NCBI RefSeq assembly: GCF_964355755.1
Contig: NC_092671.1
Span: 36,969,304-37,033,303 of the forward strand
Origin: Antedon mediterranea
Taxonomy: Eukaryota; Echinodermata; Crinoidea; Comatulida; Antedonidae
Length of the DNA: 64,000 bases
Reading direction: 5' to 3'
This document shows, piece by piece, positions 15,415 through 61,605 of this stretch (the first letter of the stretch is position 1; every line of letters starts with the position of its first letter). Position numbers and translations under genes: made by a program. A model generated the notes under the pieces. The model was not told where the DNA came from, did not search any database, and saw only the letters and a program-made list of their open reading frames with translations.

Positions 15415-15813
15415 CTACTTCGAGCTGGTGTATTTGGTTACAGCCTTGGTTCCCTCACTCACTGCATGTTTGGCAAGTTCGCCTGGCAGGAGAAGACGGA
15501 CTGCAGTTTGCACCTCACGACTGCTGATTGTAGACCTCTTGTTGTAATGAGCCAAACGGGATGCTTCTCCAGCAATACGTTCAAAGACATCATTGACGAA
15601 GCTGTTCATGATTGACATGGCACGGCTAGAAATGCCAGTGTCTGGATGTACTTGCTTCAGGACTTTGTAAACATAGATGCTGTAGCTTTCCTTTCGTTTG
15701 CGTCGGCGTTTTGTTACAGCACTTCGTCCACGACCTTTCCCTGCCTTCTTCATGCCTTTACCAGCCTTCACTGGGCTCTTCTTAGGACTCTTTTTTGGAC
15801 TCCTTGGTGGCAT
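15415..15813 (-). CDS. Histone H2B, SPKK-type N-terminus (sperm-like), 132 aa
   Basis: Intronless. The core fold is complete: [20 protein letters not shown], the [20 protein letters not shown] helix, [20 protein letters not shown], and a C-terminus ending KYTSSK. The N-tail carries repeated SPKK-type motifs (S5-P-K-K, S9-P-K-K, S13-P-V-K). Known sea-urchin sperm H2B variants have such N-terminal SPKK repeats, which bind linker DNA and are regulated by phosphorylation. The 132-aa length exceeds the usual 122-125 aa because of that tail. It is divergent from H2A with a shared promoter, and the 3' stem-loop is present. Germ-line expression is an inference from the tail. Confidence 0.93.
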
Positions 15814-16155
15814 CTTGAATTTATTACACTCAAAATTGAATGATGATCATTTCATTCAATTTGGCTGGTATTTATAGGCACGGTATGCAAATTAGGTTTC
15901 TAATTTGGGCTATCCTGCAAACACTCTTAGCCAATCAAACTATTTAAAAGATAGCCAATCATCGTTTTCCTTGTAGGTTATTGGCTAAAAAGTTTTACAG
16001 CTTGAGCCCATCTGTAATTGGTTGGCGCGCGCGTAACATTTCGATTGGATGTTGATAAACCGAACTACGAGCCTCCAAAAACCTATAAAAATAGCGGTGT
16101 ACATTTATTTTCCGTTTATTTCATAGTTGAAAATATTTGGAGTGTAAATCATATA
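15814..16155. promoter_or_regulatory. Divergent H2B/H2A promoter
   Basis: 342 bp between the two ATGs. For H2B (minus): TATAAATA at 15876-15869 and the octamer ATTTGCAT at 15892-15885, the classical H2B promoter element. For H2A (plus): TATAAAAA at 16084-16091. Five CCAAT boxes lie between: forward at 15931 and 15955, reverse (ATTGG) at 15980, 16017 and 16044. This is a complete bidirectional histone promoter. Confidence 0.85.
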
Positions 16156-16524
16156 ATGTCTGGACGAGGTAAAGGAAAAGGAGGAAAGAGAAAGGGTGCG
16201 AGGACCAGGTCAAGCCGTGCTGGACTTCAGTTTCCAGTAGGACGTGTACATCGTTTTCTTCGCAAGGGCAATTATGCCAATCGTATTGGTGCTGGTGCAC
16301 CAGTTTACATGGCGGCTGTTCTCGAATATCTGACTGCTGAAATCTTGGAGTTGGCTGGAAACGCAGCGAGAGACAACAAGAAATCAAGAATAAATCCACG
16401 TCATCTTCAACTAGCTATTCGCAACGATGAAGAGCTGAACAAATTACTCGGAGGCGTAACAATTGCTCAGGGCGGTGTTCTACCCAACATTCAGGCTGTG
16501 CTTTTGCCAAAGAAAAAGAAATAG
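16156..16524 (+). CDS. Histone H2A, 122 aa
   Basis: Intronless. The ATG at 16156 gives the canonical [14 protein letters not shown] start; an in-frame extension back to 16018 crosses the TATA box and is not used. Core motifs are [60 protein letters not shown] and [20 protein letters not shown], ending PKKKK. Odd points: ANRIGAG where YAQRVGAG is usual, INPRH where IIPRH is usual, and a short all-lysine tail. With the SPKK-type H2B it forms one nucleosomal dimer pair. No H3, H4 or H1 gene is in the window, so this is an isolated pair. Confidence 0.94.
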
Positions 16525-39700: not shown

Positions 39701-42700
39701 AAAACTTTGTGATGTGCCCACTACCATATTTGGGCATATCCCTACCATATTTGGGCATATTCCTACCATACTTGGGCAGATTATCACACTTTTTTTGTCA
39801 AACTAGTTTGATAGTGTAGACAGAGCTTAATCGAAGTACTATCCATTGTATGCTTCATGGAGAAAGAAAGTTGGGAGAATTTTGTATTTTTTTCTCTTGA
39901 TAACATGTTTGCATGCTTGGAACTTTCATCCTTTTTAAAACTTTAGTTCAACAAGGAAACAAGAAACATTTAGTGTCCACATTCCAGACACAATCACAAC
40001 ATGGGTGACAGATGTAGTGTCAATGTCGAAGCATACAGGTCTGGGCATAGCAAGACAGTCAACTATTAAGACGTATAAACCGTTCTTTGTTGAATTTGCT
40101 CTGCCTTACTCGGTGATAAGAGGAGAAAAGGTGAAAATACCTATCACAGTGTATAACTACTTGGATACGTGTGTACAGGTAGGTAGCATTGTATTATGCT
40201 TAATATTAAATTGTTTAATTTTCTTGTATAAAGATTTATTTTAACTGTTTGTATTGTATGGAGTGAGTGCAGAATCTGTTTGGGCTATAGCCTATTCACA
40301 CTCCTGGTCATTTTTCATTGGTGACCGAATAAATATTAATATTATCTACTATATGGGCGGTTGGGTTGGAATTTTGGAAGGGACATCAAAGCTGTAAAAG
40401 AAATTTCATAATACTGTAATCAGGGAGGAATAAATAATTATTTTTATACCTCTCTGTTGTAATGTCATCAGGAGAGACAATTGTTCCATATTTATATTTA
40501 AGTATATTTTTTGAACTATAGTTATAAAAATAAAGAAATTCTGTTTTCTTTTACATTCTTGGCATTTACAGACATTTTTAAATCTCCAATTTGATATATA
40601 ATCTTGTTTTATTTAGGATTTCCAGTTAAGTTGAGAAATTTTTTTTTTTACTAATTTGATTCATAATTTAATGACCGGCTGTTAAATAAGTTCTTTTAGG
40701 GAGAATTTTAGGAAAATTGTGGTTTTAAACTAAGTTGTTTGGAGTTAAAATATTAAAGGTCGTTAGGGGAATAAAGTTTAGTTGGCAAAAATCCAATATA
40801 AAAATATTGTATACATTTATTGTATAATATTATGTTTATAAATCTAGGTGTCAAATTTGAAGATATTGAAAATATGAGAGAGATTGTTGTGTATATGACG
40901 GTTTTGTCTGTACTGTATTATAAAGCTCTGTCTACACTATCAAACTAGTTTGACAAAAAAACGTGTTATGTACCCAAATATGGTACTGTAGTTATGTTTC
41001 TAAATATTGTAGTGATATGACATCATCATGTCTATATTTGGGCACATCACATTTTTTTTCACATAAAGTTTAATAAATTTCTCTTCCAACAAAAAAAAAA
41101 CCTTTTTAGGCATCAGTGACTTTGCACCTGTCAGATGGTATTCATTTCGTGGACCATCCTGGAAAACGTCATGAAATTTTAAAATATTGTATGGAACCAA
41201 ATGAACTGAAAACGGTTGAACATTTGTTGACCTTTGACCAGCTAGGGACAGGAAAAATACAGGGTATGCATGTTATTGTGTTTTTTTTTTTACAAATGTC
41301 AACAATTGTACAGAAATAAATAGCAATGTTGATACTCCTCCCCCCCCCCCCCCCCCTTCCCACTACATAGATTTGATAACAATTTAACATTTGATGACAT
41401 TTCTTGCAGCTAAAGTTGTGGCAACAAGGTCAATGTTATGCTGTGGTGATACTTCTGCAACTGAAACACCTCTAGCCATTGACAGACTGTCAAAGCAGAT
41501 AGAAGTAGAGGTAGAACCTTCTTAACATTGCATTTTTTGATGTTCCTTATACCAAGGCAATCTAAAAACCGGATGCTGAGCTCCGGAGATCAAAGGGTTT
41601 ATCTGTGGCTGCGACACGATTAGTCAACAGAAACCACGTTCCACAGAGAATATGAATAGTACTAACAGTACTGTTGGTATTTGTTGCAGCCAGACATAAG
41701 ATAAAAGGACTGTTACAAGTTCCTATCTTGACAAGGCGAGCTCAGTGTCCTGTTGTTAGATTAGATTATATAGATTTAGATACTCTTTAAAAAAAGTTCT
41801 AGCAAAATGTGTGACGTATTTATTTTACTTTATGTAATATTTATTTCATGTTTTTATATTGACAGGCAGAAGGAATACTTCGCTATTATACACACAGTGT
41901 ATTCTTCTGTCCTAACGGTAAAGTCACTTATTGATATCTTTTGAATCATTTCTTCATTATTTATACTATAGAGAAATACATTTTTTTTGTATACAGCAAT
42001 TTAGATATTATTTTCTCATATAGCTTTTGAATAAAGACATGTCATAACCATTATTAGTTAGTTAATTGTTCAAATTTATTTTTTTAAATGTTTTTCAATT
42101 CACAACCAACATAGATAAAAAAAACCTCCATTAACAGGCTGAGAAAAATTTCTTTACAATTTTAGATCTAAAAATGATAAACTATTACTAAAGCTGTTTA
42201 TTATTTAAAAATTTTAGTATCATAAATATTCCAAGCATTAAGATTTTGAGCAAATCTCTGAAATAAACCTCTTTGTAACGTCTACTCGCCCAAAAGGGCT
42301 ATAAGGTATTTAAACAAAAAAAATTTTTAAATCTTAAATGATTAAATGTATTATTTTAAAATGTATTATTTATTTCAGAGCGCATCACAATTTCAACTCC
42401 TAACACATATGATTACAAGTATGTGAAAAAGCCCTCCAATCTGCAAGTGTTTTCATTTGCATGCAAAGCAGAGAACGACGCACACATCGCATTAGCTGTC
42501 GACCCAACTGGCATGGATCTTTATGAGATTGTTCTTGGAGGATGGCAGAATACAAAGTCGTGGATCACAGCCTCTAAACAAGGTAATCATTGTTGGATTA
42601 TTGTCACTCAAGTTCAACACCTCTTTACAATCAAGTATTCTTAGTGTATGATTTGATTTCAATTTATTTGGAAAATCATCATAAAAAATACATATAAATT

Positions 42701-45700
42701 ACTGACATTACAAAAAAAACATTTATAAAAGATTTTCCAGGATAGCCCAAAAAGCTTATTCAGATTCAGATTTATTTGGTCCTTGCGGAAATTCTTGACA
42801 GGCACAAGCGCACACATAGAAATACAATGACTTACAAAATATATAAGTAAAAGTAAAGATAAACAAGTGAAGAGTTGTAAGAAAGACACACTATACAAAA
42901 TAAACTACAAGGTGGTTCAACAGTATTTGTCATTGAAAGCATGGATGGAAAAAGGGATGTGAATGAATTTAGATATCTGTTATTTCAACATAGTAGCTTA
43001 TTAGCTTATTTCCAATGAGATCCTGTATGTGTGAAAGTGAAAGTGCGACAAGATAAATAAATTGATGTTACTATCATATTAAGGAAATAAAGAATTTTGC
43101 TAAAAAAAAAAATTTCAAATCAACCTTAATTTTCCATCATAAAACCTTACAAATTAAGATGAAGGACATATAAAAAAATGCGAAGCCTAAAAATGTTTTA
43201 CCGTTACCTAGACAATCACAACACAATCATACAACAAACGTTTTTTTGTATTTATTAGGAGAACATCTAGTAACAGTTTCAACTCCTGGAATTGTATCCT
43301 GGGATGAATTTAGAGCGTTCTGGATCACCTTTGAGAATGGTCTCATTGTGGTAAGATACTTGTTATTGTTAAAGATATTTTGTCCCCCAAATACATGAAA
43401 AATGAAGATTAATAAATTCAGACTTTATATAGGACATTTTTAATGAAATTATTCACTTCTTTCAAAAAAAAAACCAAAAAAAAAATTATTATTTCACTTA
43501 TAAAAAGTCAAAAGAAACAGTTAATTTTAACCAAAAACCAAAAAGTATTTTTTGCTTTAAATTACATTTTTTTCAGGTAACTAATTTTTTTTTTCAATCA
43601 AGTTTTTGGTCAAAGTGAATAACTATTATGTGACATTAAAGTGGCATATTCAACAAAAAATGTGAAAACAAAAATGTTTAGGGGGATAATATATCTAACT
43701 ATAGTAACATTTGAGCCTTTATTGATTTGGTAGAATATGAACTATTTAATGATGACAATATAGAGTAATGTCCACATTTTTTATTAAATACTTTAATTGT
43801 TTAATTTTTAGGTTGGCCATGGTGAAATCCCAAGTAATACCTCTACTATCATGAGTTGGCAGTTGGAATCTGAAATCAATGTAGATTATTTAGGATTTTC
43901 AACAGGATGGGGATCAATGGGGGAGTTTAGAATTTGGAGAAAAGAGGGTAAGTAGACATTGTAATGTTTATTTGTAGTATAACTCTGTCTTCACTATCAA
44001 ACTTTGTGACAAACAAAATGTGATGTGCATATATACAGACATGATGATGTCATATCACTATTTGGGCATATCACTACCATATTTGGGCACATCACAGTTT
44101 TTTTGTCAAACTAGTTTGTGTAGACAGAGCTTAATATGCATAGAGAATGTTAGTTGAGATCCTTTTTTTATTTCATTTTATTCGTTCGTCTCAAAACAAT
44201 AAACAAAACAATAAAATACACCAACGTAATAAATAACACATTTTTTTAATGAATGAACTTGTACTTTAGATTCTCAGAATCGTTTCTTGGAAGTGTTCAA
44301 CTTGGGTTTACCGTTAAACTACATTCCTGGATCAGAGTATGCAGTGGCGTCCATGGTGGGAGACGTCATGGGTCCCACACTGACAAACTTACACAACCTA
44401 ATCAGATTACCGTTTGGATGTGGCGAACAGAACATGATTCATTTTGCACCGAATGTGTATGTGATGGGTTACTTGGAACGTACGCATCAGCTCCATGAAG
44501 GAACACAGAAAGAATTGGTCACGTTTCTTGTACAAGGTGAGTGATAACAATCATTTTATTTTCTTTAAGCTCTGTCTACAATATCAAACTAGTTTGCCAA
44601 AAAGAGTGATGTGATGTGCCCAAATAGGGTAGTGATATTCTTAAATATTGTAGTGATATGATATCATCATGTCCATATTTGTCCATTTTTTTGTTTGGTA
44701 ATGTAGACAAGGCTTTAAAACTAATTTTTGTTATTAATGTGTTTTGTATGATCTAATCAATTTATAAGTACTTAATGTTTGTATTTTTAGACATTTTATC
44801 ATCATCTGAGGTGTCAATTGAATTTAGATGCAAAAAATAATTTATGATCATTCAAATGTACTGTAATTTTGTTTTAAACTATTGATTGTTCATTGGTGTC
44901 AATTTAATTTGTTAGGCTATCAAAGACAGCTGACCTACAAGCACAATGATGGGTCATTCAGTGCCTTTGGTCAACGAGATTCCTCTGGAAGTATGTGGCT
45001 TACGGCATTCGTCCTCAAGTCCTTTGCTCAATCACGACCGTTCATCTTTATTGACTCAAAGTTGTTGGATGGCAGCAAACGCTGGATCATAGGCCAGCAG
45101 CTTCCTGATGGGTCATTTCCTCCTGTTGGAAGAGTTCTTAACAAAGACATTCAAGTAAGTAACCTACGTGGAGTAAGTGAACTTAGTTGAGTAAGTGACC
45201 TAAGTTGAGTAAGTGACTTAATTCAGTTGAGTAAAGTGAGTAAAGTGACCAAAGTTGAGTAAGTGACCTAAGTTGAGTAAGTGACAAGTGGGGTAAGTGA
45301 CCTTAGTGGAGTAAGTGACCTAATTTGAGTAAGTGACCTAAGTTGAGTAAGTGACCTCAGTTGAGTAAGTGACAAGTGGGGTAAGTGACCTTAGTGGAGT
45401 AAGTGACCTAATTTGAGTAAGTGACCTAAGTTGAGTAAGTGACCTCAGTTGAGTAAGTGGCCTGGTTGATCATACTGTTAAATTAATTTAAGTAAGAATA
45501 ATTTTTACAAAATAGCATAGCTACAGATATTAAAAGTCTCTTAGAAATGACTTTAAATCAATTTTGATTGCTCTTGTAACTTGCACAGATTCATTGCGAA
45601 CATTTTAGTAGAGATACTGTACCTCTGCACTGCACTGATAGAAGTAGAACCAACAACCACTGATGATACAGATTTAAATAAATGTTGAATATTAATTAAT

Positions 45701-48700
45701 TAATATGAATATTCATTACAGGGTGGAGTTAAAGGAAAAGTGTCTCTGACAGCATATGTAGTGATTGCATTACTGGAAGCTGGAGTTGAGTCTGTGAAAG
45801 AACTTGCATCGATTGATAATGGAAAGAAATTCCTTGAAGATAACATACAGAATATAGATGACCCATACACTGCTGCCCTTACAGCTTATGCATTGGTTAA
45901 ACTTGACAGTCAGGAGTCAAACAGAGCTGTGAGAATATTAAGAAATATGGCCATTACACAAAGTAAGGATTTTTTTTTTTAAAGTCAATATAGTATTGCT
46001 AAATCAATTTTTCAGTCCTCACTAAACTTTAAATATCCCTACAAACTAGAGCAATATTTAAATCATTTCATTTGGAAAAGGAAATGTTCATGTGTTAGCG
46101 TTATTTATACAATGTATAAATAACTTTATAAATAATTTAACTTTCTATGGATCAGAGATTCCGAAATAAAATGAATGAATGAAAACACTTTTTTTTAGAT
46201 GGATACACATCTTGGCGTCTAAACGGCAATCCAGTTGAGACTGTGGCGAGGTTTGGTGGATTTGAAGACCTGAAGCAGACTATCAACTCAGCAGAAGTGG
46301 AAATGACAGCGTATGGTTTACTGACGTACACGGCATTAGGCGATATTGCATCATCATTACCAATTGTAAAATGGCTTTCACAGCAGAGGAACACACTTGG
46401 GGGCTTTACATCAACACAGGTATAAAAATCTATATATATTAGGAGTATCAGTGGTTAGATCTCAATGGAGATACAAATAAAATGATCAAAAAGCTAAATC
46501 AAAATGGTATAGTAAAAACAGCCAGAAAGCTTTTGTAAAACACTAGCAAGTGATTGGCCGAGCAGTTAAGACAGTGGAACCGTAATTACGTGGCCATAAC
46601 ATTGGCAAGGTTAGTCGAGGCTCACTCGCTCCATTGTTCTGGTGGTAGAACAAGTCTTCTCGGATAAGGACTATAAACCGTAGGTCCAGTGTACACATCT
46701 AGCTCATTTTAAAGAGATCAGTACACTTTTGAGACGAGTAGGGAGTTACCCCGGTGTATTAGTACATAACAGTCACTGATCATAAACGGGTCCTCTGGGA
46801 GACCAATCTTTGACTGAAGAGGTTGCCAAGTATAAATACATATTATTTCAATTATATTTCATCATCAGGGCTAATTCTAAAATGTTTCTACTTATCTTCA
46901 TATAGGATACTTGTATAGCTCTGCAGGCTTTGTCCGAATATGCTTCCTTGGCATATGTTGGCGGTGTTAACTTGACCATTGCCCTGGCCACTGGTAGCTT
47001 AGATCAGAGCTTTGAACAGACCTTTGAACTTAACAATGATAACAGCAAAGTATTACAGCGAGTTTCGGTAAGTGAATTATAATATATCATTATTGTTTTG
47101 TTTGTTATACATACCATACATACATACCATAGCCAACTGTTTCAATGTTAAGCTCTATCTACACTATCAAACTGTATGTGACAAAAAAATGTGCCCATAT
47201 ATGGACATGATGATGTTATATCACTACTATATTTGGGCATATCACTACCATTTTTGTCACATAAAGTGTGATAGTGTAGACAGAGCTTTATATAGTTTAT
47301 TTACTTTATATACATTGAATTGAATTGAATGGACCAGAGTTTGTTCTCTCAGTATACTTTTTATTATGAAATGTTTGTATGGTCGAATTGATCTTAATAT
47401 TCATGATTTTGTTGATTTTAATACAAGTTATTCCGAATCAGTTATTTTTAAACACAAATATGCCAGAACCAATTCTTTTAAATATTCATTGTACACTAAT
47501 TTTCCCCGTGTATGGCAAGAGATTCCTAATTATATTAGAGAACATTCTTTATTTAGTTTTAACACATTTGTGACAGCTCTCCGGTCTTATGTCAGGCAAC
47601 TTTAAACTTTTTATTTTTTTTTATCTTTAAACAATCATTTTTATTTGTACATAATATTTATATTTATAAATTTTTTAGATTCAATTTTAACGATTGTTCA
47701 ATTTGATGCCTCGCAATTTTTAAATTTTTATATCTTTGTATTTTTATTGTTTACTTATATGTCCAAGTGCAGTATATGGAGAGCCATCTCGATAGTGCTT
47801 TGCACTCATGGCAATTCTCAGGGTGCTGCACCGCTGTCTTGTCATGTATTTTTGTGCCTGAAAATTGAATAAAATAAAATAAATAAATAAAATAAATGTG
47901 AATTTAGCAACTTTAACCCATGTATAAAATGCTACACATTTAAAATGATATACAAAAAAATACAATACAGAACTAGACTGCTTACTTGGACTTGAATATC
48001 AATTATCACTTCTTGCTAATCGAACGAAAATTTCCCCTGACACTTGTTTTATTTTTCCAGATTCCCCAGATTCCAATTGTGATGTTTGTGAAAGCTGAAG
48101 GAGAAGGCTGTGGCTTGCTACAGGTAAGAACAAAAATGTGATAAAAAGCCGCTTGTAATCTTTGTTTTTTGCATTACATTGACAGATCCAGGATTTTGAA
48201 ATAGGCTGGCATAAGGAAACCTAAATGTTGTGCTGCAACAGCCTATGCCATAATTTGTAATTCATCCTATTTTCCTACCACTGTATTCCGACACTTTTTC
48301 TTCCATTTTCCAATATGTAATTATCTTTGAAGTCTATTATATTAAAATTATATTACATTTACACATAGATCGATGTCAAATATAACATACCTGATCCATC
48401 CACCAAACAAGCTTTCAAACTCAGTGTTAAAATGAGAGATGCAAAGAAGACTGCAAATTCCATTCGTAGGAGGCGCTCTACTGATGGCCAGGAGGAGTTG
48501 CAACAAAACTCTTCTGAAGAACAAGACATGGTATTGATCCAGGCTTGTGCACGCTGGCTGCACCCAGGCTCATCCAACATGGCTGTGTTAGAAGTGTCAC
48601 TCCATACCGGTCTTACTGCAGATTTAGACAGTCTTGATCAGGTAATATTGCTTTTAGATTTCCAAAGACTTTGTCTAAAAATCTTGAAGAGGGCATTCCA

Positions 48701-51700
48701 TGTTAGTAAGCGTATTTTTATTTATGCATAATGAAGACGATAAATGAATATGTATGTTTTGTTTAGTTGATTTATGATCGTTCAACTGGTGTAAAACGTT
48801 TTGAGGTTGACGGCCGAAAGGTGTTGTTCTATTTCAATGAGATTCCTAGTCAATGCCAGACGTGTATTAACTTCACCGCGTACAGAGATTATGTTGTTGG
48901 AAATCTCAAATCTGTGCCAGCAAGAATTTATGACTACTATGAGCCAAGTAAGTCAAATTACATTATCATATTGTTTTTTCCAATTCAATTCAATTCAATA
49001 AAAAAGAATGTATCTGTTATTGCATTTGTATTTTGCAATGTAGACTGGGTTACCTCGTATTATGTTGTCTTGCTTTTGTACTCTTTTCATAGAAAACCAG
49101 GCTCACCAACCCTTTTCAAGCACCTACCAAGCACACCATTCTAGATCTCTCTGCATTTATCAATTATGCCACACATGTATATACATATCCCACTCACAGT
49201 GATGACTGTATTATTTTCTCAGGTTTTGAAGCTACCCAATTTTACAACGTAAGCAGAAGTAGTTTTATTGCAAGAGACCCATGTGATGGGGATGAATGTA
49301 ATAAGCTACCAGACGATACACCAGACATGGCACAAGAACAAGGTAAATGTGTGTTACAATGTAGCTTGGTCTGATATCAGAATTGTTCCTGGCAGTGCTC
49401 TACTACTTAAACCTCCACATAAATCAAATTAGGTTTAGTATTGTTCTTCCTGTATTGTTGATGGTATTCATATCTAACCATTATGAAACTAAGAGTATCA
49501 AAGATCGTTTCTCTGCCTCTGAAAGGAGACTTCTTTATGAAAAGTCCAGATATGATAAATTTGTTTAGATATGCCAATTTCATATGTGCTACGTTTGAAC
49601 TTCAGTATGTCAATCGCTGTTGCCCAGTTCTGTTTACACTATCAAAATTTATTTGACAACAAAATGTGATGTGCCCATATATGGACATGATGATGGCCAT
49701 CACTACCATATTTGGGTATATCACTACCATATTTAGGCACATCAAACTTCTTTTGTCAAACTATAAGTTTGATAGTGTAGACTAACTAAACTTTTTACTA
49801 GTTCTAGACAATGATTGCAATACATTATCCAATGATTGTGATGATAATGATGTGGATGTGTGCGGTTGTGACCGTACATGCATTAGCACTGGAACTCAGA
49901 TCTGTGGTAGTGACAACAACTGGTATAATAGTGTCTGCCAAATGGAGGTTGCAGCTTGCAAGTCATCGTATTCTGTCTATGCAGTTCCTCCTACTTCCTG
50001 CCCAGGTACTCTTAACTTTATTTTCCAAGTTGTCTGTAATTTTTTATAGTGGGTTCAGAGTTCAAATCAAGTTTAGTTCTTAATTTGTATTTAACCCTAT
50101 TGAATTTCCATTGAAATAAGCATGAAAATAGTTAACATTTTAACGTATGAGCCATAGTGGCTTTAGAGCTAGTTATTATTGACATTTTTTAGAGCAACTT
50201 GTAATTCCGACTCCAGAACAACCGATAATCTCAACCAGTCGACCAGTGGATGTCAATTTTGCAGGTTAGAAATAGTTTGGCTCACTTTCTCTCTTACAAA
50301 TAGTATCTTATCCAGTTTTAAATTAGATTAATATCAGCAGTCTTGTGCACTGTATTTCTAGTTTATACAATACCAAATGAAAATATTAGCAGTTAATAAT
50401 GAAAACTTAAAATATTCCATTTCCATTTTCCAAACTTGGTTAAAGCATCATGTTTTTTATTCTCAATGTGAAGAATACGGTAGCTCTGGAGACATAGGAG
50501 CAGTGTACCAACCTGAGATGGTAGACTATAGCAGCAGGTTAGGTTCTATGTATGAACTGATTTCCTCCAAATTACAACCTAATGCTGATATCGTTGAAGA
50601 TGCAGGTGAGAAAGCTTTGGTATGGTTACTTGGTACCTTACTTAATTTAAGATCCATGGATTGCATTAGTTACCCTACTCTCCCCATTTTAATAACTGGC
50701 CCGTTGCCATTGCTGAATTTTGAATAACCATCTGTTCTGGAAATCTTTTTAAATCTGCCAGAGATAGGCTGAGCATAGTGAAACTTATGGTGCTGAGTTG
50801 TACATTCTATAAAAAGCTTCTTTGAATTTTCTTTTTTTGGTATCAAGAATGTAAGTGTAATTTTATTTATTGATAATAGAATGATATTAATTTATAGTAA
50901 ACGTTGATGGAGATATTGATTATGAAGAAGACCTGATTGACTTGACAGAAGAAACATTATCTGGAGAGAAAGTTGGAAATGATTATTTTGACTTGGCAGA
51001 AGAAAAATTACCAATAGAGGAAGTTGAAAAAGAGTTGATTGACTTAACAGAAGGAATATTACCCAGAGAAGAAGTTGAAAAAGATTATTTTGACTTAGCA
51101 GATGAAAAATTACCTGAAGAACTAGAAAAAGAGGAAATTGACTTAACAGAAGGAACTTTACCAGGAGAGGAAGTTGAAAAAGAGGAGATTGGCTTAACAG
51201 AAGAAACATTACCTGAAGAAGAACTAGAAAAAGAGGAAATTGGCTTAACAGAAGGACCTTTACAAGGAGAGGAAGTTGAAAAAGAAGTTGAAAATGATTA
51301 TTTTGACTTAACAGAAGGAACATTACCTGAAAAAGAACTAGAAAAACAGGAAATTGACTTAACAGAAGGAACTTTACCAGCAGAGGAAGTTGAAAAAGAG
51401 GAGATTAGCTTAACAGAAGAAACATTACTTGAAGAAGAACTAGAAAAAGAGGAAATTGACTTAACAGAAGGAACATTACCAGGAGAGGAAGTTGAAGACG
51501 ATTATTTTGACTTAGCAGATGAAAAATTACCCAAAGAAAAACTAGAAAAAGAGGAAATTGACTTAACAGAAGGAACATTACCAGGAGAGGAAGTTGAAAA
51601 AGAGGAGGTTGGTTTAACAGAAGGAGCATTACTTGAAAAAGAACTAGAAAAAAAGGAAATTGACTTAACAGAAGGAACATTAACAGAAGAGGAAGTTAAA

Positions 51701-54277
51701 AAAGAGGAGGATGTCTTAACAAAAGGAACATTACTAAGAAAAGAAGTTGAAAATGATTACTTTCACTTAGCAGAGGAAAAAGTACCTAGAGAGGAAGTTG
51801 AAAAAGAGATTGGCTTACCAGAAGGAACATTACCCAAAGAAGAACTTGAAAAACAGGAGATTGAATTTACTGAAGAAAAAGTACCTAGAGAGGAAGTTGA
51901 ACAAGATTATTTTTACTTAGCAGAAGAAAAAGACAAATTACCCAGAGAGGAAGTTGAAAAAGACTATTTTGACTTAGCAGAAGAAAAATTACCTAGAGTG
52001 GAAGTTGAAAAAGAGGAGGTTGGTTTAACAAATGGATCGTTACCTGAAGAAGAACTTGAAAAAGACGAAACTGAACTAAAAGAAGTGATTTTAACTAGAG
52101 AGGAAGTTGAACAAGATTATTTTGACTTAGCAGATGAAAAATTACCTAGATATGAAGTTGAAAAAGAAGAGGTTGACTTAACAGAAGGAATATTAGTGGA
52201 AGAAGAACTAGAAAAAGAGGAGATTGAATTAACAGAAGGAACTTCACCTGAAGAACTTGAAAAGGAGCAAATTGAATTAAGAGAAGAAACATTACCTGAA
52301 GGAGAACTTGAAAAAGAGGAAATTAGAAATGATTATTTTTACTTAGCAGAAGGAAAATTACCAGGAGAAGAAGTTGAGAAAGAGGAGGTTGGCTTAACAA
52401 ATGGAACATTATCTAAAGAAGAGCTTAAAAAAGAGGAGGTTGGCTTAACAGAAGCATTGCTCGAGGAAGAGGAAGTATCAACTGTCCTTGTTGAGCTCCA
52501 AACCGATGTTAGCGATATCCTTCTACAATCTTCAAACTATATGTCCTATCTGGCTGAATCCTTCTATACAGTTGACATTGATCAGCAAGACCCTTTTCCT
52601 GAAATGGTTACCCCTCATAAAGATCCAAGTCATGAAATTGACCAAACTCAAGCGCAAGAACCCACTCCCAAACTTGACCCCACCCATGAGGAAGAACTTG
52701 TCCATAAAATACTATCCTTTCAACAGCAGGAACCTACTGAAAAGAACTCCACCCATCAACAACAGAACTCTACCCAAGTTGTTGGAAATCAGCAAGAACC
52801 AGTATCTGAAGTTGTTGCAACCCATGTGCAGGAATCGCTTAATAAACTAGATACCACTCGCCAACCAGCAGTAACAGACGGTTCTACCCAAGAACCGACA
52901 GTTATTGTTGAGCAGACAACTGAGATTGTAGAGGTTGAGGAAGAGAAGGATACAAAGGTACTGGAATAGAAATACATAGAAAGTAATAAAAAGAATTAAA
53001 ACATTTAAGATATAAAGTTACACTAATCAGTTTTTTAAATTAATACATTGTTGAGTCAATTATATATATATATACGATATAAAAATATATACAGTACATA
53101 GAAATCAATAAAAAGTTAAAAACATTATAATAAAAAAGTTAGTTAAAAGTATTTAAAACAATTTCTACATTTTAATAATAATTCTTCAGTTGCTAGAATT
53201 AGTGGAGTCATCAACCGTTACGCCGATGGTGCCATCGACAGACCACTTCCCAACTGATAGTGCTTCCACAGAAGAAATTGTTAAAAAACCAACACAAATA
53301 TCCTTACAGAAGGAAGAAATTGTTGGTGAAACAGAGGTCGAATATAAGGTAATCACATCATCATTTTTAAAACTTTAGTTTTACATTTTAGACTCTGCCT
53401 CCCTAAATGTATTTTAAAAAAAAATCTCTTCTCTTATTATTAGCCTGTCATGTTTTGACCTTTACCTGTCTTTTCTATACTGTATCTTTATTTTAAGGCT
53501 CGCCCAACACAAGATGTTTATCTTCATCTGTCCGGGCATCTGCCTTTGACCTATTATTATATATATATGCATTGTATTTTTATTTTTATTTTTTGTCAGA
53601 GTTTGTAAATAAATGTTATGAAATGAAACGAATACTGGTAGTTAGGTTGATGTTTTATTTAATAATACTAGTATTATATTATGTAACACCATAATTGAGA
53701 AAAGTTCTAATAAGATTATTGGTAATATATTAGTAGTAGTAATTTGTAGTATGTTTAAAGTTGTTTTTTATCACCTCTAATTCCGAAAATTACGATACAA
53801 AAGAATGATAAAACTTTAGGTTAAGTTGAGCACAATTGTACACTTTCAAAATCTTAGATCCACCAGTCGTTTCCCTTTTGTAATAGAATTGAGATTTGTA
53901 ATTGAGATTTAATAGAAAAAATAAGATGTATTATTCATTCATTAATTTTAATCAAACTGTTACAACTGTTTTGAATTATAATTTACTTGTTTATTATTTC
54001 ATTTTAGATATCAAATGTCAGTAACTCGACATTAGTAGAACATGCAGATGTGATCTTTGACAAAATAGTGCACTATCTTGACAGGCCTGCTTCTGATGAT
54101 CCATCAAGATCAGCTGATACAACCGCAGAAAAAGAAAACAACACAAAAGAACAACTCGAACAACATCACAAAGATAAAAAACATCACAAAGTGAATGTCA
54201 GTCCAAGAAGCAATCCGTCAGAGCAGACAAGTCTTCTTCAATTAGGTAAAGTTAATCACGAATTAAGGGGAGAATAA
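18706..54277 (+). CDS. CPAMD8: CPAMD8-type thioester protein (alpha-2-macroglobulin family), 40 exons, 2,608 aa
   Basis: Exons: 18706-18794, 24167-24318, 24825-24847, 26047-26215, 26758-26810, 27764-27836, 28924-29037, 30142-30226, 31388-31496, 31699-31929, 33558-33728, 34069-34203, 34731-34875, 35191-35360, 35519-35668, 38353-38487, 38865-38931, 39411-39531, 39947-40178, 41110-41263, 41410-41510, 41866-41917, 42379-42582, 43259-43350, 43812-43947, 44270-44536, 44916-45154, 45722-45962, 46199-46419, 46906-47067, 48061-48123, 48369-48641, 48767-48947, 49223-49342, 49802-50005, 50193-50264, 50474-50605, 50898-52957, 53190-53348, 54008-54277. All phases agree (7,827 nt). Signal peptide 1-28; [10 protein letters not shown] in MG2 (134-143); polybasic KRKKR 648-652; SYFPDTWIW; FAMeT-like domain about 914-1053; thioester GCGEQ 1104-1108; receptor-binding domain about 1432-1640; Kazal-like 1664-1710; acidic repeats about 1780-2300. 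FAMeT insert plus C-terminal Kazal is, as I recall it, the CPAMD8 arrangement. No GPI or TM segment, so secreted. Confidence 0.88.
19443..19552. repeat. Dispersed repeat R1 (CATATACATGGCTGCAG ... GACCGACCGACATAG)
   Basis: The words AAGGCCATATACATGGCTGC and CCGACCGACATAGT-AGCTGT recur at 24909-25000, and the first half recurs at 60415-60465. Class unknown. Confidence 0.5.
20197..23574. mobile_element. Foldback-type element B, 3.4 kb, 8-bp TSD, in CPAMD8 intron 1
   Basis: Starts GAGTGGGGTTGGTGAA and ends TTCACCAACCCTATTG, the same ends as the element at 3589-4813. Arms of about 310 bp (20197-20510 and 23260-23574) are repeats of GTCCATAATAGGTGACTTT. AAACGTTA flanks both sides (20189-20196, 23575-23582). 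It is inserted in a 33-bp minisatellite. The interior holds a nested inverted-repeat element (20760-21193), AGGCCTA-rich DNA and AT-rich filler. No transposase frame seen. Confidence 0.78.
20760..21193. mobile_element. Nested TIR element inside foldback B, carrying a tRNA-like pol III head
   Basis: CTAAAGATACGGTACCGTAT at the left mirrors ATACGGTACCGTATCTTTAG at the right, and the adjacent arms (AACTAAAGATACGGTAATTA, GAGGGCGC) also pair. Inside are four copies of an 18-19-bp CTTCCTAAATATAAAACTC-type unit (20870-20940), an A-tract (20981-20998), and on the minus strand TAGCCTAGTGG (A-box) and GGTTCGATACT (B-box). Confidence 0.6.
23583..23890. repeat. 33-bp minisatellite (GCGATTAAGTGGAAAAGTTA)
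   Basis: About nine tandem units of TTAGCACTGTAACTTTGCGA plus TTAAGTGGAAAAG. One further unit lies left of the foldback element (20172-20196), so the element split the array. Confidence 0.75.
24909..25000. repeat. Dispersed repeat R1 copy
   Basis: AAATATGGCTGCAGTTCCAT then CCAACCAACCGACCGACCGA and CATAGTAAGCTGTAA. Compare 19443-19552. Confidence 0.5.
25001..26046 (+). other. CPAMD8 intron 3, no internal feature recognised
   Basis: AT-rich. No MITE termini, SINE boxes or conserved frame were seen apart from the R1 repeat at its 5' side. Confidence 0.4.
27895..28077 (-). mobile_element. tRNA-derived SINE, family S1 (best copy)
   Basis: The minus strand starts GTGGAGATGTGGCTTGGTGG TTAAC (A-box-like), then GGTCCAGGGTTCAATCCTGA (B-box). 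The body runs to GGCGAGTC. It lies in CPAMD8 intron 6. Confidence 0.65.
28280..28443. mobile_element. MITE family A copy
   Basis: AGCTCTGTCTACACTATCAA to TTGATAGTGTAGACAGAGCT, about 164 bp, in CPAMD8 intron 6. Confidence 0.75.
29056..29367. mobile_element. MITE family B copy 1
   Basis: Begins TTAAAGATATATTGTCCCCC and ends GGGGGACAATACATCTTTAA. The interior is A/T-rich with CTTTGACCAAAAACTGGATC. In CPAMD8 intron 7. Confidence 0.75.
29692..29844. mobile_element. MITE family A copy
   Basis: AAAGCTCTGTCCACACTATC to AGTTTAGACAGAGCTTAA, in CPAMD8 intron 7. Confidence 0.7.
31192..31362. mobile_element. MITE family A copy
   Basis: AAAGCTCTGTCTACACTATC to TTTGATAGTGTAGACAGAG. Its right end is about 25 bp from the exon 9 acceptor at 31387. 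Confidence 0.72.
31930..32025 (+). repeat. Donor-proximal tandem repeat in CPAMD8 intron 10
   Basis: Starts at the 5' splice site and repeats GTAAGAACACTAAACAACAC-type units about three times. Each has a GTAAGA or GTATGA donor-like start. Confidence 0.6.
32690..33052 (+). mobile_element. SINE family S2 copy
   Basis: GACAGTGGAACAGTAATTAA, then TTCTGGTGGTAAAACAAGTC, GATAAGGACTATAAACCGTA and GGTTACCCCGGTGTACTAGT. Ends near CTATATAAATGTC. The 5' head is shortened. Confidence 0.6.
33840..34035 (+). repeat. Retroposon-like 3' tail
   Basis: GCGCTTTATAAAAGTTTATTATTATTA resembles the tail of marine-invertebrate SINEs or LINEs. The upstream GGGGCCCTCATAAGGC hairpin may belong to it. Just upstream of CPAMD8 exon 12. 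Confidence 0.35.
34322..34443. mobile_element. MITE family A copy
   Basis: TTCTATACACTATCAAACTA to AAAGTGTAGACAGAGCT, CPAMD8 intron 12. A 14-bp minisatellite starts immediately at its right end. Confidence 0.65.
34441..34636. repeat. 14-bp minisatellite (ATGAGATACTGCAC)
   Basis: About 14 units directly abutting the MITE, in CPAMD8 intron 12. Confidence 0.75.
34923..35045. mobile_element. MITE family A copy, right end lost
   Basis: ATCTCTGTCTACACTATCAA at the left; the central motifs are kept and the right TIR is missing. CPAMD8 intron 13. Confidence 0.6.
35669..36560 (+). repeat. 14-copy ~63-bp tandem array starting at the exon 15 splice donor
   Basis: The unit is GTATATGTACAAAGATAGGC, then ATAGTATAATGAGTTCTTAA, then GCTTGGTTCGCACTAGAGAC GCAG. 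The first half of unit 1 is the natural start of CPAMD8 intron 15. The second half is the end of the MITE at 36538-36686. Each later unit begins after GCAG, so each recreates CAG|GTATRT. A few units are 5 bp shorter. Confidence 0.85.
36538..36686. mobile_element. MITE family D (GCTTGGTTCGCACTAGAGAC)
   Basis: GCTTGGTTCGCACTAGAGAC at the left and GTCTCTAGTGCGTACCATGC at the right are inverted. Inside, AATCACAAGCGATTG and CATCGCTTGTGATTGG also pair. Confidence 0.7.
36690..38352 (+). other. Remainder of CPAMD8 intron 15
   Basis: AT-rich. It contains a MITE family B copy (37105-37375) and AT-rich filler. A short inverted word TATATAGTACAGGG near 37830 is minor. No gene seen. Confidence 0.4.
37105..37375. 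mobile_element. MITE family B copy 2 (degenerate)
   Basis: TTAAAGATAAAA to GGTTGACAATACATCTTTAA, with the interior TTTGACCAAAAATTGGATCG shared with copy 1. Confidence 0.65.
38353..38487 (+). other. CPAMD8: CPAMD8 exon 16: polybasic processing site
   Basis: Codes [10 protein letters not shown] (KRKKR at residues 648-652), a furin-type site in the position where C3/C4-like proteins are cut into chains. Glu/Asp/Tyr-rich sequence lies upstream. Confidence 0.7.
38983..39224. mobile_element. MITE family B copy 3 (degenerate)
   Basis: TTAAAGGTGTATTATG to GGAACAATATATCTTAA. The interior CAATCCAGTTTTTGGTCAAA is the reverse of copies 1 and 2. Confidence 0.6.
39664..39830. mobile_element. MITE family A copy
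   Basis: TTAAGCTCTGCCTACACTAT to AGTGTAGACAGAGCTTAA, perfect TTAA ends, CPAMD8 intron 18. Confidence 0.78.
40920..41073. mobile_element. MITE family A copy, right end truncated
   Basis: AAAGCTCTGTCTACACTATC at the left; the right end stops at CACATAAAGTTTAA, about 36 bp before the exon 20 acceptor. Confidence 0.65.
41555..41767. mobile_element. MITE family C copy 2
   Basis: Shares AAGGCAATCTAAAAACCGGA, TGCTGAGCTCCGGAGATCAA and CAAGGCGAGCTCAGTGTCCT with 9893-10096. Right TIR TTAGATT is decayed. CPAMD8 intron 21. Confidence 0.65.
42655..42905 (-). repeat. Possible LINE/SINE 3' tail
   Basis: TTTATTTGGTCCTTGCGGAAATTC-like sequence and AATTTATTT duplicates, reading as a retroposon end on the minus strand. 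Weak. Confidence 0.3.
43369..43698. mobile_element. MITE family B copy 4
   Basis: TTAAAGATATTTTGTCCCCC to GGGGGATAATATATCTAA; the interior TCAAGTTTTTGGTCAAAGTG is shared. CPAMD8 intron 24. Confidence 0.72.
43979..44134. mobile_element. MITE family A copy
   Basis: ATAACTCTGTCTTCACTATC to TTTGTGTAGACAGAGCTTAA, CPAMD8 intron 25. Confidence 0.7.
44270..44536 (+). other. CPAMD8: CPAMD8 exon 26: thioester site GCGEQ
   Basis: Codes [20 protein letters not shown], with Cys1105 and Gln1108 forming the internal thioester. In exon 27 the position that is the catalytic His in C3 (in VIHQEMIGG) appears to be Asn1219 (VLNKDIQGG), as in A2M. By analogy the thioester would favour amine targets (inference). 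Confidence 0.9.
44565..44718. mobile_element. MITE family A copy (decayed)
   Basis: TTAAGCTCTGTCTACAATAT to AATGTAGACAAGGCTTTAA, CPAMD8 intron 26. Confidence 0.65.
45155..45460 (+). repeat. 18-bp tandem array starting at the exon 27 splice donor
   Basis: CPAMD8 intron 27 opens directly with about 16 units of GTAAGTGACCTAAGTTGA. Each contains the consensus donor GTAAGT. The true donor is the first unit (ATTCAA|GTAAGT). Confidence 0.85.
46550..46850 (+). mobile_element. SINE family S2 (most complete head)
   Basis: Head TGGCCGAGCAGTTAAGAC (A-box) and GGTTAGTCGAGGCTC (B-box-like), then the conserved body and TTTGACTGAAGAGGTTGCCA. CPAMD8 intron 29. Confidence 0.65.
47148..47291. mobile_element. 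MITE family A copy
   Basis: TTAAGCTCTATCTACACTAT to GATAGTGTAGACAGAGCTTT, CPAMD8 intron 30. Confidence 0.72.
47325..47895 (+). mobile_element. 5'-truncated LINE 3' end (reverse-transcriptase C-terminus remnant)
   Basis: An 80-codon frame (47366-47605) has the tail pattern of non-LTR retrotransposon ORF2 proteins: [40 protein letters not shown], then LRSYVRQL and stop. The 3' UTR ends in AATAAAATAAAATAAATAAA, as in CR1/L2-like LINEs. It lies in CPAMD8 intron 30 and is non-functional. Confidence 0.65.
49626..49785. mobile_element. MITE family A copy next to the exon 35 acceptor
   Basis: GTTCTGTTTACACTATCAAA to TTTGATAGTGTAGAC. It ends about 16 bp upstream of the acceptor at 49801, so it supplies much of the acceptor-side intron. 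Confidence 0.68.
49802..50005 (+). other. CPAMD8: CPAMD8 exon 35: Kazal-like domain
   Basis: Cys at 1664, 1666, 1670, 1678, 1689, 1696 and 1710, with C-x7-C-x10-C spacing around [20 protein letters not shown]. This matches Kazal/follistatin-type modules. A C-terminal Kazal-like module is a known CPAMD8 trait and rare in other A2M proteins. Confidence 0.8.
50898..52957 (+). other. CPAMD8: CPAMD8 exon 38: giant acidic repeat exon
   Basis: A 2,060-bp exon. Roughly 50900-52470 is an imperfect 48-54-bp coding minisatellite encoding about 30 units such as [18 protein letters not shown] and [15 protein letters not shown]. Glu dominates, with recurring Leu. Tyr sits in D-Y-F-D or N-D-Y-F contexts typical of tyrosine-sulfation substrates (inference). 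It is followed by a Gln/Pro/Thr-rich stretch with repeats of QQQEPT and THEEE type. The antisense open frames across it are by-products. The frame is preserved despite heavy repetition. Confidence 0.85.
53420..53640 (+). repeat. Probable LINE-like 3' end
   Basis: A unique-looking stretch ending GTAAATAAATGTTATGAAAT in CPAMD8 intron 39; resembles a non-LTR 3' UTR. Weak. Confidence 0.3.
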
Positions 54278-54589
54278 TTAATCATATTTATATAATTTTA
54301 TTGTATAGAATTGCTGTCAACAATGTAAATGTTATTCTTTGTTTTTCGTTTACATTTTATAAGAACAATGATAAAATAGGGAAATTATGTGAGATTATAC
54401 CATCTCGTATTATAATAATATAGTAATATTGTATTATATACTGAGGATTACCTCAATGATCTATATATAGTTAGACCAATACGTAATGTGTGTGAAGTGA
54501 CACAAAAAATTTTGAAGAAGAAAATGTGATACTGTATTTGAATCGTGTTTTTTTTTGTTAATCTTAAAATGTACACAGTAATCAGTCAC

Positions 54590-56754: not shown

Positions 56755-58656
56755 TCAGATATTATCAATTGCGTCACTTGGTTGTGCAAGTTTTGCATAT
56801 TGCGTTTTCATCGATATATCGGAGTGTATTTCAGAAGAACAGTTTTGGTTAATTTCCAGATCTGCATACTTCAATCCCTCGGCGTTTAATTTCCGCGGAT
56901 CAACGACAGCAACAGGCGACTGTATTAAAACCTCTTCGTATTTATTTTTTCCTACGTAATTTTGTGACGGTGACGCCGCTACGTTTGTTAGTTCCGCGTA
57001 TTCGTTATTCTTTCTTTGTTCACATGACGTCGGTGGTGAGTTGCCATTAGTTGGTGACCTTGTAACATCCTCCAGGGATAAATGAAAGTCGCGTTTTATC
57101 GGCATGGCGTATTCGGGAGGTGGGTTTTTGGGGGTTCCTTTCATAGGTTTCGCGTATTTTGGGATCGATTGTTTATTAAATGAGGCCGGTAATGTGGCGC
57201 AGGATTTTTTGGAAATTTCGGTAGGGGAGTGCTTAGACGTCGGCAGTATTGGAGAATGCTTCGGGGAAGGGGGTTGTGACCGTGTAGGGCTTGCTGCTGG
57301 AGTAACCAGTGGACTTCTGTTGATAAGCTCTTGTGTTTTTTCATCTTTCATTTTATCAGTTTCTGATACAAGGTTACCATTATTCATTTTAGTAACTTCA
57401 ATCTTGGCATAAGGCGCGTAATTCATTCCAACTAATTCGTCATCGTCAACGCTATCGGAGATGTTATACGATTTTCGCTTCCGTCTACACACAATAATAA
57501 GAGCTACCATTGAGAGTAAAACGATAAAAAGTCCAGCAACACATACGGCCAAAATTAGAACATTGTTTTGGAAGAAATCTATTGCCGTATGTTTAACTCT
57601 GGGTTTTGCCGGTATAAACGGTAGCTCGGTGGCTCCAGGGGCAATAGTAGTTACTAAATCGGCATCTTTTTGAGTTATCCTAAGCCCAATTTTATCTTCT
57701 ACTATTAAAATAGCTTGCTCGCTGGCAACCTTATCTCCATTTGCTCCTCTGGCTACGCACATTATTTTAGACGCATTGTCGGCTAATGTAGGTCCCCGTA
57801 TCGTTAGCGACACCGTTTCCGAGTCCGATAAAAATCGTTTTGTGAGAATCAAATTCGGTGATGCCATCCATTCGTACGTCGGATTTTCTAAGCCGTGTGA
57901 ACTACAGTTAAATTTTATCTCGCCATCTTCCACAACTCTTCCTATTTTTGGCGTAATACGAACAATAGCCAGTAACGGTGTCAATGAACACGTTTTTGGA
58001 GTTTGTAAAGCTTGGCTGTTTAAAATACATGTGAAGGTAACTCCTCTGTGGATCTCCGTTAATTTGATCCTTATAAAGGTATTATGACCGTTAACTTCTG
58101 ATTGTATGTTAAGCCTGGTGTTATCTGCGTTGAGTTGAAGTGTTGGCGTTGGGTTCCCGCCTTCAGATGAACATTCGAATTCGACGTCTCCAGTTGGAAG
58201 TGCGTTTATAAGACATACTGGAGAGCTCGGAGTCGGCGCTGTCAACACAACCAGCTCCACTGGATGTCCAACGTTGGTGTAGTACGACTTCTGCAATGGT
58301 TCATCTTGGTACGCGTACATACAGGAAAACAGTCCAGCGTCAATCAATCTAACATTTTCTATTTTCAAATCGAATCGGTGATTCGATGATCTTATTATAG
58401 AATATCGATGTTTGAATTCTGTTTGTTGTGCGCGTATCACCTGTAAGTTTGTACTTAAGAAAACGTTACGACTATCGGAAAACCAGGCGATATCGTAACT
58501 TTCCCGTACTTGTTGGCTGACGTGGCAATGGAATATTGCCGTTCCACCCTCAACTACTGCTAAACTTTCAGGTTTTTCTGTTGTCAAAAAGTTCGAAAAA
58601 ACTGGACTTACAAATGTAAATAATGTACACGAGATAAATATTCTGGAAATGCTCAT
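56755..58656 (-). CDS. Type I membrane protein with three Ig-like domains and multiple YxxI/L/V-type motifs, 633 aa
   Basis: The ATG at 58656 opens a signal peptide (MSISRIFISCTLFTFVSPVF). The frame extends upstream only through non-ATG codons and reaches a splice acceptor at 58701. Ig1 Cys44-Cys112 (V-like, DAGLFSC), Ig2 Cys162-Cys210, Ig3 Cys251-Cys300; TM about 366-390 (NVLILAVCVAGLFIVLLSMV) followed by stop-transfer RRKRK. The tail has Tyr motifs Y416-AKI, Y501-AKP, Y516-AMP, Y553-AEL, Y573-EEV, Y597-ADL and Y620-AKL. LKYADL fits the ITIM consensus; TQYAKL is similar. Pro/Ser-rich SPxx repeats lie between. The overall plan recalls Siglec/nectin-like or inhibitory immune receptors; I cannot assign an orthologue. 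The coding region is intronless, unusual for an Ig protein. Donor 59070 and acceptor 58701 suggest one 5' UTR intron. Confidence 0.82.
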   Translation of the reverse strand: MSISRIFISCTLFTFVSPVFSNFLTTEKPESLAVVEGGTAIFHCHVSQQVRESYDIAWFSDSRNVFLSTNLQVIRAQQTEFKHRYSIIRSSNHRFDLKIENVRLIDAGLFSCMYAYQDEPLQKSYYTNVGHPVELVVLTAPTPSSPVCLINALPTGDVEFECSSEGGNPTPTLQLNADNTRLNIQSEVNGHNTFIRIKLTEIHRGVTFTCILNSQALQTPKTCSLTPLLAIVRITPKIGRVVEDGEIKFNCSSHGLENPTYEWMASPNLILTKRFLSDSETVSLTIRGPTLADNASKIMCVARGANGDKVASEQAILIVEDKIGLRITQKDADLVTTIAPGATELPFIPAKPRVKHTAIDFFQNNVLILAVCVAGLFIVLLSMVALIIVCRRKRKSYNISDSVDDDELVGMNYAPYAKIEVTKMNNGNLVSETDKMKDEKTQELINRSPLVTPAASPTRSQPPSPKHSPILPTSKHSPTEISKKSCATLPASFNKQSIPKYAKPMKGTPKNPPPEYAMPIKRDFHLSLEDVTRSPTNGNSPPTSCEQRKNNEYAELTNVAASPSQNYVGKNKYEEVLIQSPVAVVDPRKLNAEGLKYADLEINQNCSSEIHSDISMKTQYAKLAQPSDAIDNI

Positions 58657-58700
58657 TTTCGTGACGTCAATTCCGAAACTGTTTGTATTTTTTGTCAATT

Positions 58701-59070
58701 CTGTGAGAATAGAATAAAATAAATTACGATGTCATAATATTTGTTTTTTAAATAAAATTTGTTTAGATTAAATAAGTGAAATAAATTAATGCGGACGAAT
58801 TTTAAAAATAAAACCCCATTTTTTTAGATTAAATAAAATAATGACAGTTAACAACCATATATTTTCACACTACAGACTGCTTCATGAAGGTAATGAAATC
58901 AGTCTTCAATCATCAGGTTAAACTTTTTTTTTAAATTTTGTTTACACATCGCAATCTACAGAAGCGTTAATAATAATATAATGATGAAATATTTATAACA
59001 AAAATATCCATAAAAAAGTTCTCACGGTACTAACAACAAACAAATATTTAAACAAGAATATATAACCTAC
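58701..59070 (-). other. Predicted 5' UTR intron of the Ig receptor gene
   Basis: On the minus strand a donor GTGACAG|gtaggt ends an upstream exon at 59071. An acceptor ttctattctcacag is followed by the coding exon at 58700. The non-coding first exon would lie near 59071-59330. Confidence 0.5.
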
Positions 59071-60013: not shown

Positions 60014-61605
60014 TACAATAAATTTGTTTTTTTTCTTTTTATTTATTCAAATTCTCATAAAAATGTACATACAAAGAAAGAAAAAGACATAACATGAAAA
60101 AAACAGAGTACATTCAGTCAAGGATGGGACCAACAGGTGGTAAACACCTCTAGGACGGTCCAATCCCAAATTGCACAATGAGTAATGAAAATGTTTATAA
60201 CATTATAATAAATATTGAAATATAATAGTAATTTATACATTTGTATGATTGTATAATTGATTTTAATACAACTGTCATGTGAAGAAGGCCGATGATGAAC
60301 GATTCAAACTCTTGTATTTTTTTTTATTCATTTAGCATCCAAGACAATCCATTCAACAATACATTTAAAATACATAAACAAAGAATAAATACACATACAC
60401 ATACATATTATTAACAAGGCCATATACATGGCTGCAGTCACTGACGTGCGCAAATTTGAGTTAGTGTGTGGATGGAAGAACGACCCATAAAATCGACATG
60501 TCAATTTATTTCCAATGCGGTCCATTAAGAAGAAAACGGAGATGTGAAAGTGATGTATTAAGTATCTTCTCTTAATTGACTTAGTGTGTTTTATTTTGAT
60601 GTTATGTTAAGCAACTGTATGCAGGCGGCAGTGGTATAATGAGTGTGACTATCAGTCAACGTCACCCATAGGCCTATTTAATCAAAATAGGCGCTTTTTT
60701 CTTTTTGGTTTCACTTCATTAAAACGTTTACCTTTACGTCATGCACGATTCATCCAGCGTTTTGGAAAGTTCCATCGCATGGGTGTTCTTCTTTCATAAT
60801 AATTATCAGTAATAATAATTAACAGTATCAACGTGTGACTGGCTTTGGTTTAAATAAAGCGATAACTTACAAACACACACACGATCCACTACATAGGGCC
60901 GGCCTCCGATTGGCGAAACAGTGTTATTTTATTTTACGAGCCACAAAAATATACGAAAGGTTTCCCAGAGTAGTTCCGGCCTCCAAAACGGTAACCACAA
61001 ACCCAGTAATCAGCGCACCTGGATAAATTTTAGTTTAGTACGCCTTTATAATTCACGAATGAAACGGTGTCCATTTTAACTTAAATGTTAAAGTTTTATG
61101 CAATATACAGCATGCTTATCTTGTAGCTATACCGGTATTGCTTTGTAATTTGTACTGGTTTTTGTATGTTTCCGCAATAAAATATTTGAAATATATTATC
61201 ATCTATTAAAGCAGTTTGTAAAGCATTGGTATCTGTTTCTCCCAACTTTGTCTACATTCCGCTCTTCTTTCGGCTTCTACACAAATCAAACGAGTGACCA
61301 ATTAAACACAATTCAACAACAGCCTATGACAAATTTCAGAGTAGTAAAAGAGTGACAAAGTAAGCAATCAAAAAGCCGTTAAAATTTAGGCCTAGATCAT
61401 TTAAAACGACGTTACAAGGGGGGGGGGGGGAGAATGTCACATAGGCATACAGAACACGGAAAGTTGTGGAATTGGGAATTCCAAGATATTCACAAATAGG
61501 TACCATAGGAAGTAAACCTATATAGTATATCGTGATTTAAATCTGGTTCTGTTCAGTTTGTTGTCTACTTTTCGGACTTACATTATTGCTTTTAAGAACA
61601 TAGTT
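60014..61605. other. Intergenic between the divergent Ig receptor and the multipass gene
   Basis: Contains an R1-type fragment (60415-60465), a G10 run near 61421 and AT-rich DNA. A minus-strand retroposon-like tail (TTTATTTATTCAAATTCTCA, near 60040) is possible. The short frame 60835-61026 has no support. The promoter of the gene at 61606 should lie near the right edge. Confidence 0.4.

Follow-up and report, generated by a model that had tools for sequence, protein, structure and literature searches.

A predicted acidic, tyrosine-bearing repeat tail on a CPAMD8-type gene of the crinoid Antedon mediterranea

A CPAMD8-type gene on the plus strand

The window, that is, the whole stretch of 64,000 nucleotides of the Antedon mediterranea genome that was analysed, carries on its plus strand a gene for a CPAMD8-type protein, of the kind that serves immunity or protease control (positions are counted from the first letter of the window). 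A splice-chain gene model was built from codon scores and from rewarded seed peptides, which were picked by hand out of the upstream exons and of which none lies within 50100-54300. It comprises 41 rows, of which two or more are doubtful: the initial exon 23457-23587, with a model score of -3.4 and overlapping a tandem repeat, and the 16-nt row 39078-39093. The initial annotation had called a complete 39-exon gene, a description that we could not uphold, since the signal-peptide exon was not resolved at the 5' end of the model.

The upstream exons, from MG1-like to Kazal, extend over 24167-50005 (+). Pfam searches on the spliced product found TED_complement (5.4e-101), Methyltransf_FA (1.8e-40), A2M (2.9e-30), A2M_recep (1.1e-27) and A2M_BRD (1.1e-23), with MG2, MG3 and MG4 also above the cut-off, and MG1 below it (16.0 bits; cut-off 23.6). 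The family-library scan of the gene ran as far as the tail exon, ahead of the exons starting at 53190 and 54008. The Methyltransf_FA domain is encoded by three exons (42379-43947, +), where the genome search also gave three matches; it scored 138.4 bits at residues 903-1036, between A2M (705-796) and TED (from 1065). The next exon described here (44270-44536, +) contains the intact thioester motif GCGEQ, as seen in the model and in a motif check. Exon 49802-50005 (+) is putatively of Kazal type: Kazal_2 matched residues 1649-1682, after A2M_recep (1503-1595), below the cut-off (18.2 bits, E 0.0027; cut-off 22.8), and we take its cysteine positions to resemble Kazal spacing. Among at least 19 A2M and at least 44 Methyltransf_FA genome matches listed, only this locus has the two close together on one strand. 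Elsewhere in the genome, Methyltransf_FA matches are densely clustered on one strand over about 22 kb (G000 C2:23935012-23956686, -).

In the available text of two reports, the domain lists of CPAMD8 include A2M-family domains, Methyltransf_FA and Kazal (PMC9363628, PMC9358689), and the A2M-family, Methyltransf_FA, thioester and A2M_recep domains are common to CPAMD8 and the protein predicted here, which also has a putative Kazal-like domain. The CPAMD8-type assignment proposed before is supported in its domain set, namely the A2M core, Methyltransf_FA and thioester domains found by Pfam, with Kazal below the Pfam cut-off. Human CPAMD8 has about 1,900 aa and ends soon after the Kazal module, whereas the gene model here runs about 897 residues past the Kazal exon, acidic array included; we do not take an early end after Kazal as defining CPAMD8.

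Two furin-type R-x-K/R-R sites, KRKKR in exon 38353-38487 and RRRR in exon 48369-48641, each followed by S, are present in the model protein. The second precedes the receptor-binding domain, and cleavage there would release a part made up of the receptor-binding domain, the Kazal module and the tail.

The predicted tail exon and its flanking exons

After the Kazal exon, two linker exons, 50193-50264 and 50474-50605 (both +, phase 1-1), and the tail exon, 50898-52957 (+, phase 1 in and phase 0 out), all join in phase 1. The tail exon was delimited by the model, the open reading frame, the repeat analysis and the coding scores; it lies in an open frame of 692 codons (50891-52969, +) and consists of a leader (50898-50968), the repeat array (50969 to about 52480) and a Q/T/P-rich end reaching 52957. 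Two coding-like exons follow in the model, one of phase 0-0 at 53190-53348 (+) and a last one with the stop codon at 54008-54277 (+). The coding score of the first linker was reached by 0.9% of 3000 open intron segments, that of the second linker and of exon 53190-53348 by 0/3000, and that of the last exon by 0/61, and the leader scored above each of 3000 open intron segments sampled at similar length; these fractions are rough because the sampled segments overlap each other. For segment 52490-52957, no open intron segment of equal length was found for the same comparison.

If the donor at 52957 is unused, the frame reads through V, L and E codons into a TAG (52958-52969, +). The best model scored 1839.2, the model ending at 52969 scored 1820.7, and the best one without the tail exon 1684.1. 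The length after the Kazal exon is about 897 residues in the model, in agreement with the roughly 900 C-terminal residues annotated at the outset, and about 758 if the stop at 52969 ends translation. AATAAA occurs at 52985, 53107 and 53129, soon after this in-frame stop.

The splice sites of the tail exon are weak (acceptor -0.9; donor aag|GTACTG 1.1). Other phase-1 acceptors lie nearby at 50928 (-1.8), 50949 (-0.2) and 51000 (1.6, above the modelled site), so the leader and its tyrosine are less certain than the array. Met codons occur in the tail frame only at 52541 and 52604, both past the array; as the first ATG thus comes after the repeats, a stand-alone, ATG-started single-exon gene was rejected. 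We also observed that 31 of the 35 CAG trinucleotides in the array (50949-52452) are in phase 1, with 3' splice-site scores of at most 1.7, so that splicing to any of these would give a shorter tail with the reading frame kept.

Units, composition and history of the repeat array

Tandem Repeats Finder reported a period of 51 nt at 50935-52318 (27 copies, 71% matches) and a period of 102 nt at 50936-52317 (13.5 copies, 75% matches). By hand division, 50969-52480 (+) was resolved into 29 tandem units, mostly of 17 aa, of which 9 are of the Tyr type and carry DYF and 20 are of the Ile/Val type and lack it. In this division 23 units have exactly 17 aa and three have 16, with one each of 19, 20 and 22 aa and one additional 4-aa insertion; the 20-aa unit is the last of the array and its end is arbitrary. 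These counts match the about 30 imperfect 16-18-aa units in one exon that had been read from the sequence at first sight. The array slice of 508 aa contains 161 E and 30 D (191 acidic residues, 38%), with a net charge of -134 and a pI of 4.05.

Synonymous differences between units were 0.19 at lag 2 and 0.21 at lag 4, versus 0.34 at lag 1 and 0.33 at lag 3. The low values at lags 2 and 4 make duplication in two-unit blocks likely, and together with the 102-bp period they indicate that the array likely grew by in-frame duplication of dimers, as judged from the lag pattern of the units.

When 240 residues of the array were searched as protein against the whole genome, at least four matches were listed, all inside the array; a genome-wide repeat family or mobile element was not supported by this search. 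Three other matches of the tail were judged to reflect low complexity: DUF1639 (30.2 bits against a cut-off of 22.2, 20 residues only), PyocinActivator (below the cut-off) and the single PDB match, an ISWI chain (E 0.028). Two further satellites were seen in the window, a 64-bp unit repeated 14 times with 95% match within an intron of the model (35672-36561) and a 21-bp unit repeated 51 times upstream of the model gene (2143-3195).

Coding constraint on the array

A neutral simulation at the observed 17% divergence from the unit consensus gave a mean of 20.4 stops, with 0 of 5000 runs stop-free, whereas the array has 0 stops; the simulation treats units as independent, yet they share history, so the expected number is overstated. 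By our own estimate, zero stops would stay unlikely even at a five-fold smaller mean. The survival of the frame through repeat expansion, which the initial annotation had brought forward as a sign of selection, hence exceeds the neutral expectation. Within unit types, the dN/dS ratio was estimated at 0.48 (Ile/Val type, 20 units) and 0.62 (Tyr type, nine units); over all pairs it was 0.81. Read from the aligned units, the within-type values and the retained unit types suggest constraint on residues, beyond the frame alone. Six internal length changes were found, every one of whole codons, and no unit was scrambled by a shifted frame, although this pattern arises partly by construction because the division into units was made on the translated frame.

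The longest open stretch of the array is 508 codons, versus 41-183 in eight other tandem arrays of the window, seven of which have fewer than 100. Two short control arrays (172 and 189 bp) each have a stop-free frame, and the control array at 2143-3195 (21-nt period) has one frame interrupted by only one stop over its 1053 bp, indicating that a period divisible by three can by itself leave a long frame nearly open.

Tyrosines and predicted structure of the tail

In the leader and array, 10 of the 13 tyrosines have Asp at -1, against a mean of 0.85 and a maximum of 5 in shuffles, a comparison affected by the copying of units, which makes the Asp-Tyr sites non-independent. The earlier description of tyrosines in D/E-rich surroundings is consistent with these counts. 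In the nine units of the Tyr type, the tyrosine is followed by Phe (+1); the leader tyrosine at 50921 lies between D (-1) and E (+1). According to the accessible part of one source, TPST prefers an acidic residue at +1 as well as at -1 (PMC5562738). The genome contains a TPST gene, found as a 287-codon frame matching Protein-tyrosine sulfotransferase 1 chain 5wri_A (PDB) with E 8.2e-109. This gene and the Asp at -1 of 10/13 tyrosines make sulfation possible, and the host TPST may act on some of the Asp-Tyr sites.

The hirudin-like motif was coded as an 8-mer from its description in PMC9372746, with the aromatic-acidic pair at positions 2-3. Six sites reached 7 or 8 of 8 positions versus 4.21 in shuffles (fraction reaching this number 0.23), and the strict motif occurred once versus 1.30 in shuffles; the motif was thus not enriched in the tail.

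AF2 of the whole exon as a single sequence gave a mean pLDDT of 37.9, with weak strands spaced by about 17 aa in the first part, and a second run on five units, supplied with a 13-row alignment made from the repeats, gave a mean pLDDT of 56.7 and no secondary structure. As both runs were of low confidence, a defined fold for the tail was not accepted. Low AF2 confidence is compatible with disorder, for which it is weak evidence, and a disordered polyanion would be the cautious reading of these models.

Comparison with known acidic tails

Complement C4 belongs to the A2M/C3 superfamily. C4 and the protein predicted here have this superfamily in common, and both have Tyr among acidic residues, as far as the available parts of the sources describe C4 (PMC9372746, PMC5562738). 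The sulfated C4 segment is placed there in the hirudin-like motif class (PMC9372746). The tail here differs in being a long tandem array in which the 8-residue motif is not enriched over shuffles. Of the resemblance to the sulfated C4 tail that had been proposed, the acidic context of the tyrosines therefore stands, whereas the hirudin-like motif of the C4 class remained at shuffle level.

Heparin cofactor II is described, in the text available to us, with a 75-residue N-terminal extension that has two repeated acidic regions with sulfated tyrosines (PMC3601010). It resembles the present protein in joining a repeated, acidic, Tyr-bearing segment to a protease inhibitor, a likeness that we treat as analogy and for which homology is not claimed; it differs in being a serpin and in having its acidic extension at the N-terminus. 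Fibromodulin, in the part of the source available, has an extended acidic tract with several sulfated tyrosines, through which it binds collagen and heparin-binding proteins (PMC9372746). An extended acidic tract bearing several tyrosines is common to both, the sulfation being that of fibromodulin. The fibromodulin tract is N-terminal and belongs to another family, and the portion seen of the same source does not describe a tandem 17-aa unit for it (PMC9372746). For CPAMD8, a repeat tail was not found among the papers listed in the literature searches, and as far as those papers show, the acidic tail on a CPAMD8-type gene is new as a variant.

Interpretation of the tail

Taken together, these results lead us tentatively to favour, at somewhat less than even confidence, the view that a CPAMD8-type protein of the A2M family truly has a coding, constrained extension at its C-terminus, which would have grown by dimers and would act as a polyanionic docking tether. 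Both neutral expansion and optional splicing are serious alternatives to this view.

The tail may instead be a translated in-frame minisatellite in a permissive, disordered C-terminus, kept open only for the downstream frame or for protein quality, which we regard as a real, if rather doubtful, possibility. It would agree with the single-locus array (240 residues queried, among the matches listed), with the dimer-wise duplication pattern and the modest dN/dS of 0.81 over all pairs, and with a window rich in minisatellites, where the 21-nt-period array has a single-stop frame in 1053 bp; however, the within-type dN/dS (0.48 and 0.62) and the fact that unit types are retained point the other way, and a protein ending at the stop at 52967-52969 would leave no frame downstream in need of protection. 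Somewhat unlikely, in our judgement, is an optional exon, with transcripts that stop earlier, splice into the array at a phase-1 CAG or end at 52969, so that the full tail is rare. The weak acceptor and donor, the 31/35 array CAGs in phase 1, the AATAAA shortly past 52969 and an acceptor at 53197 that would permit in-frame skipping are what such an exon would be expected to have, but its length of 2060 nt is not a multiple of three, so a direct jump to 53190 would change the frame, the score of the model drops by 155 without the tail exon, and the internal CAG acceptors score at most 1.7. We consider it very improbable that the array is a separate gene or noncoding and that the CPAMD8 join is a prediction artefact. 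The join does rest on gene prediction and on weak splice sites, yet the tail frame has no Met codon ahead of the array, exons on both flanks have coding-like scores and join in phase, and the frame is stop-free where about 20 stops are expected under the neutral model.

On the favoured reading of a constrained coding extension, the tail is probably a lineage-specific, disordered polyanion and perhaps a docking tether. It would be disordered and secreted, and a number of its Asp-Tyr sites may receive sulfate from the host TPST. Being a long, multivalent polyanion, it could tether the protease-trap and Kazal body to basic partners, for which matrix, basic exosites of proteases and cationic surfaces are candidates. 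The proposals of sulfation and of docking on basic partners draw on analogy with heparin cofactor II, C4 and fibromodulin. A bolder version, which we consider improbable, is a thioester protease trap with its own multivalent sulfotyrosine polyanion of at most 10 Asp-Tyr sites, which would serve as a heparin-like template to bring basic proteases or cationic microbes to the A2M/Kazal body and whose length would be tunable by repeat number or in-frame splicing.

To our knowledge, the role of the CPAMD8 protein is unclear. In the available text of one report, eye disease in humans is linked to variants of CPAMD8 (PMC9358689). If a lineage bears a long constrained acidic tail, the CPAMD8 C-terminus would be able to acquire binding functions, and nature would provide an experiment on whether an A2M-family protein docks by way of a polyanion, possibly a Tyr-sulfated one. 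Should the tail be optional or neutral, it would be another case of minisatellite growth inside a coding exon.

Neighbouring features of the window

An open frame of 658 codons at 56758-58731 (-) encodes an Ig-domain protein, with Ig_3 and V-set above the cut-off. By eye, it has a hydrophobic, membrane-span-like stretch followed by several Tyr motifs, which we take to be ITIM-like. Another open frame, of 762 codons at 61516-63801 (+), looks by eye like a multi-pass membrane protein; Pfam gave none above the cut-off for it, the best being Pho86 with 15.9 bits. Sea urchin sperm H2B carries SPKK-like N-terminal repeats, and at 15418-16521 we observed by eye a divergent histone H2B/H2A pair in which the H2B N-terminus has SPKK-like repeats.
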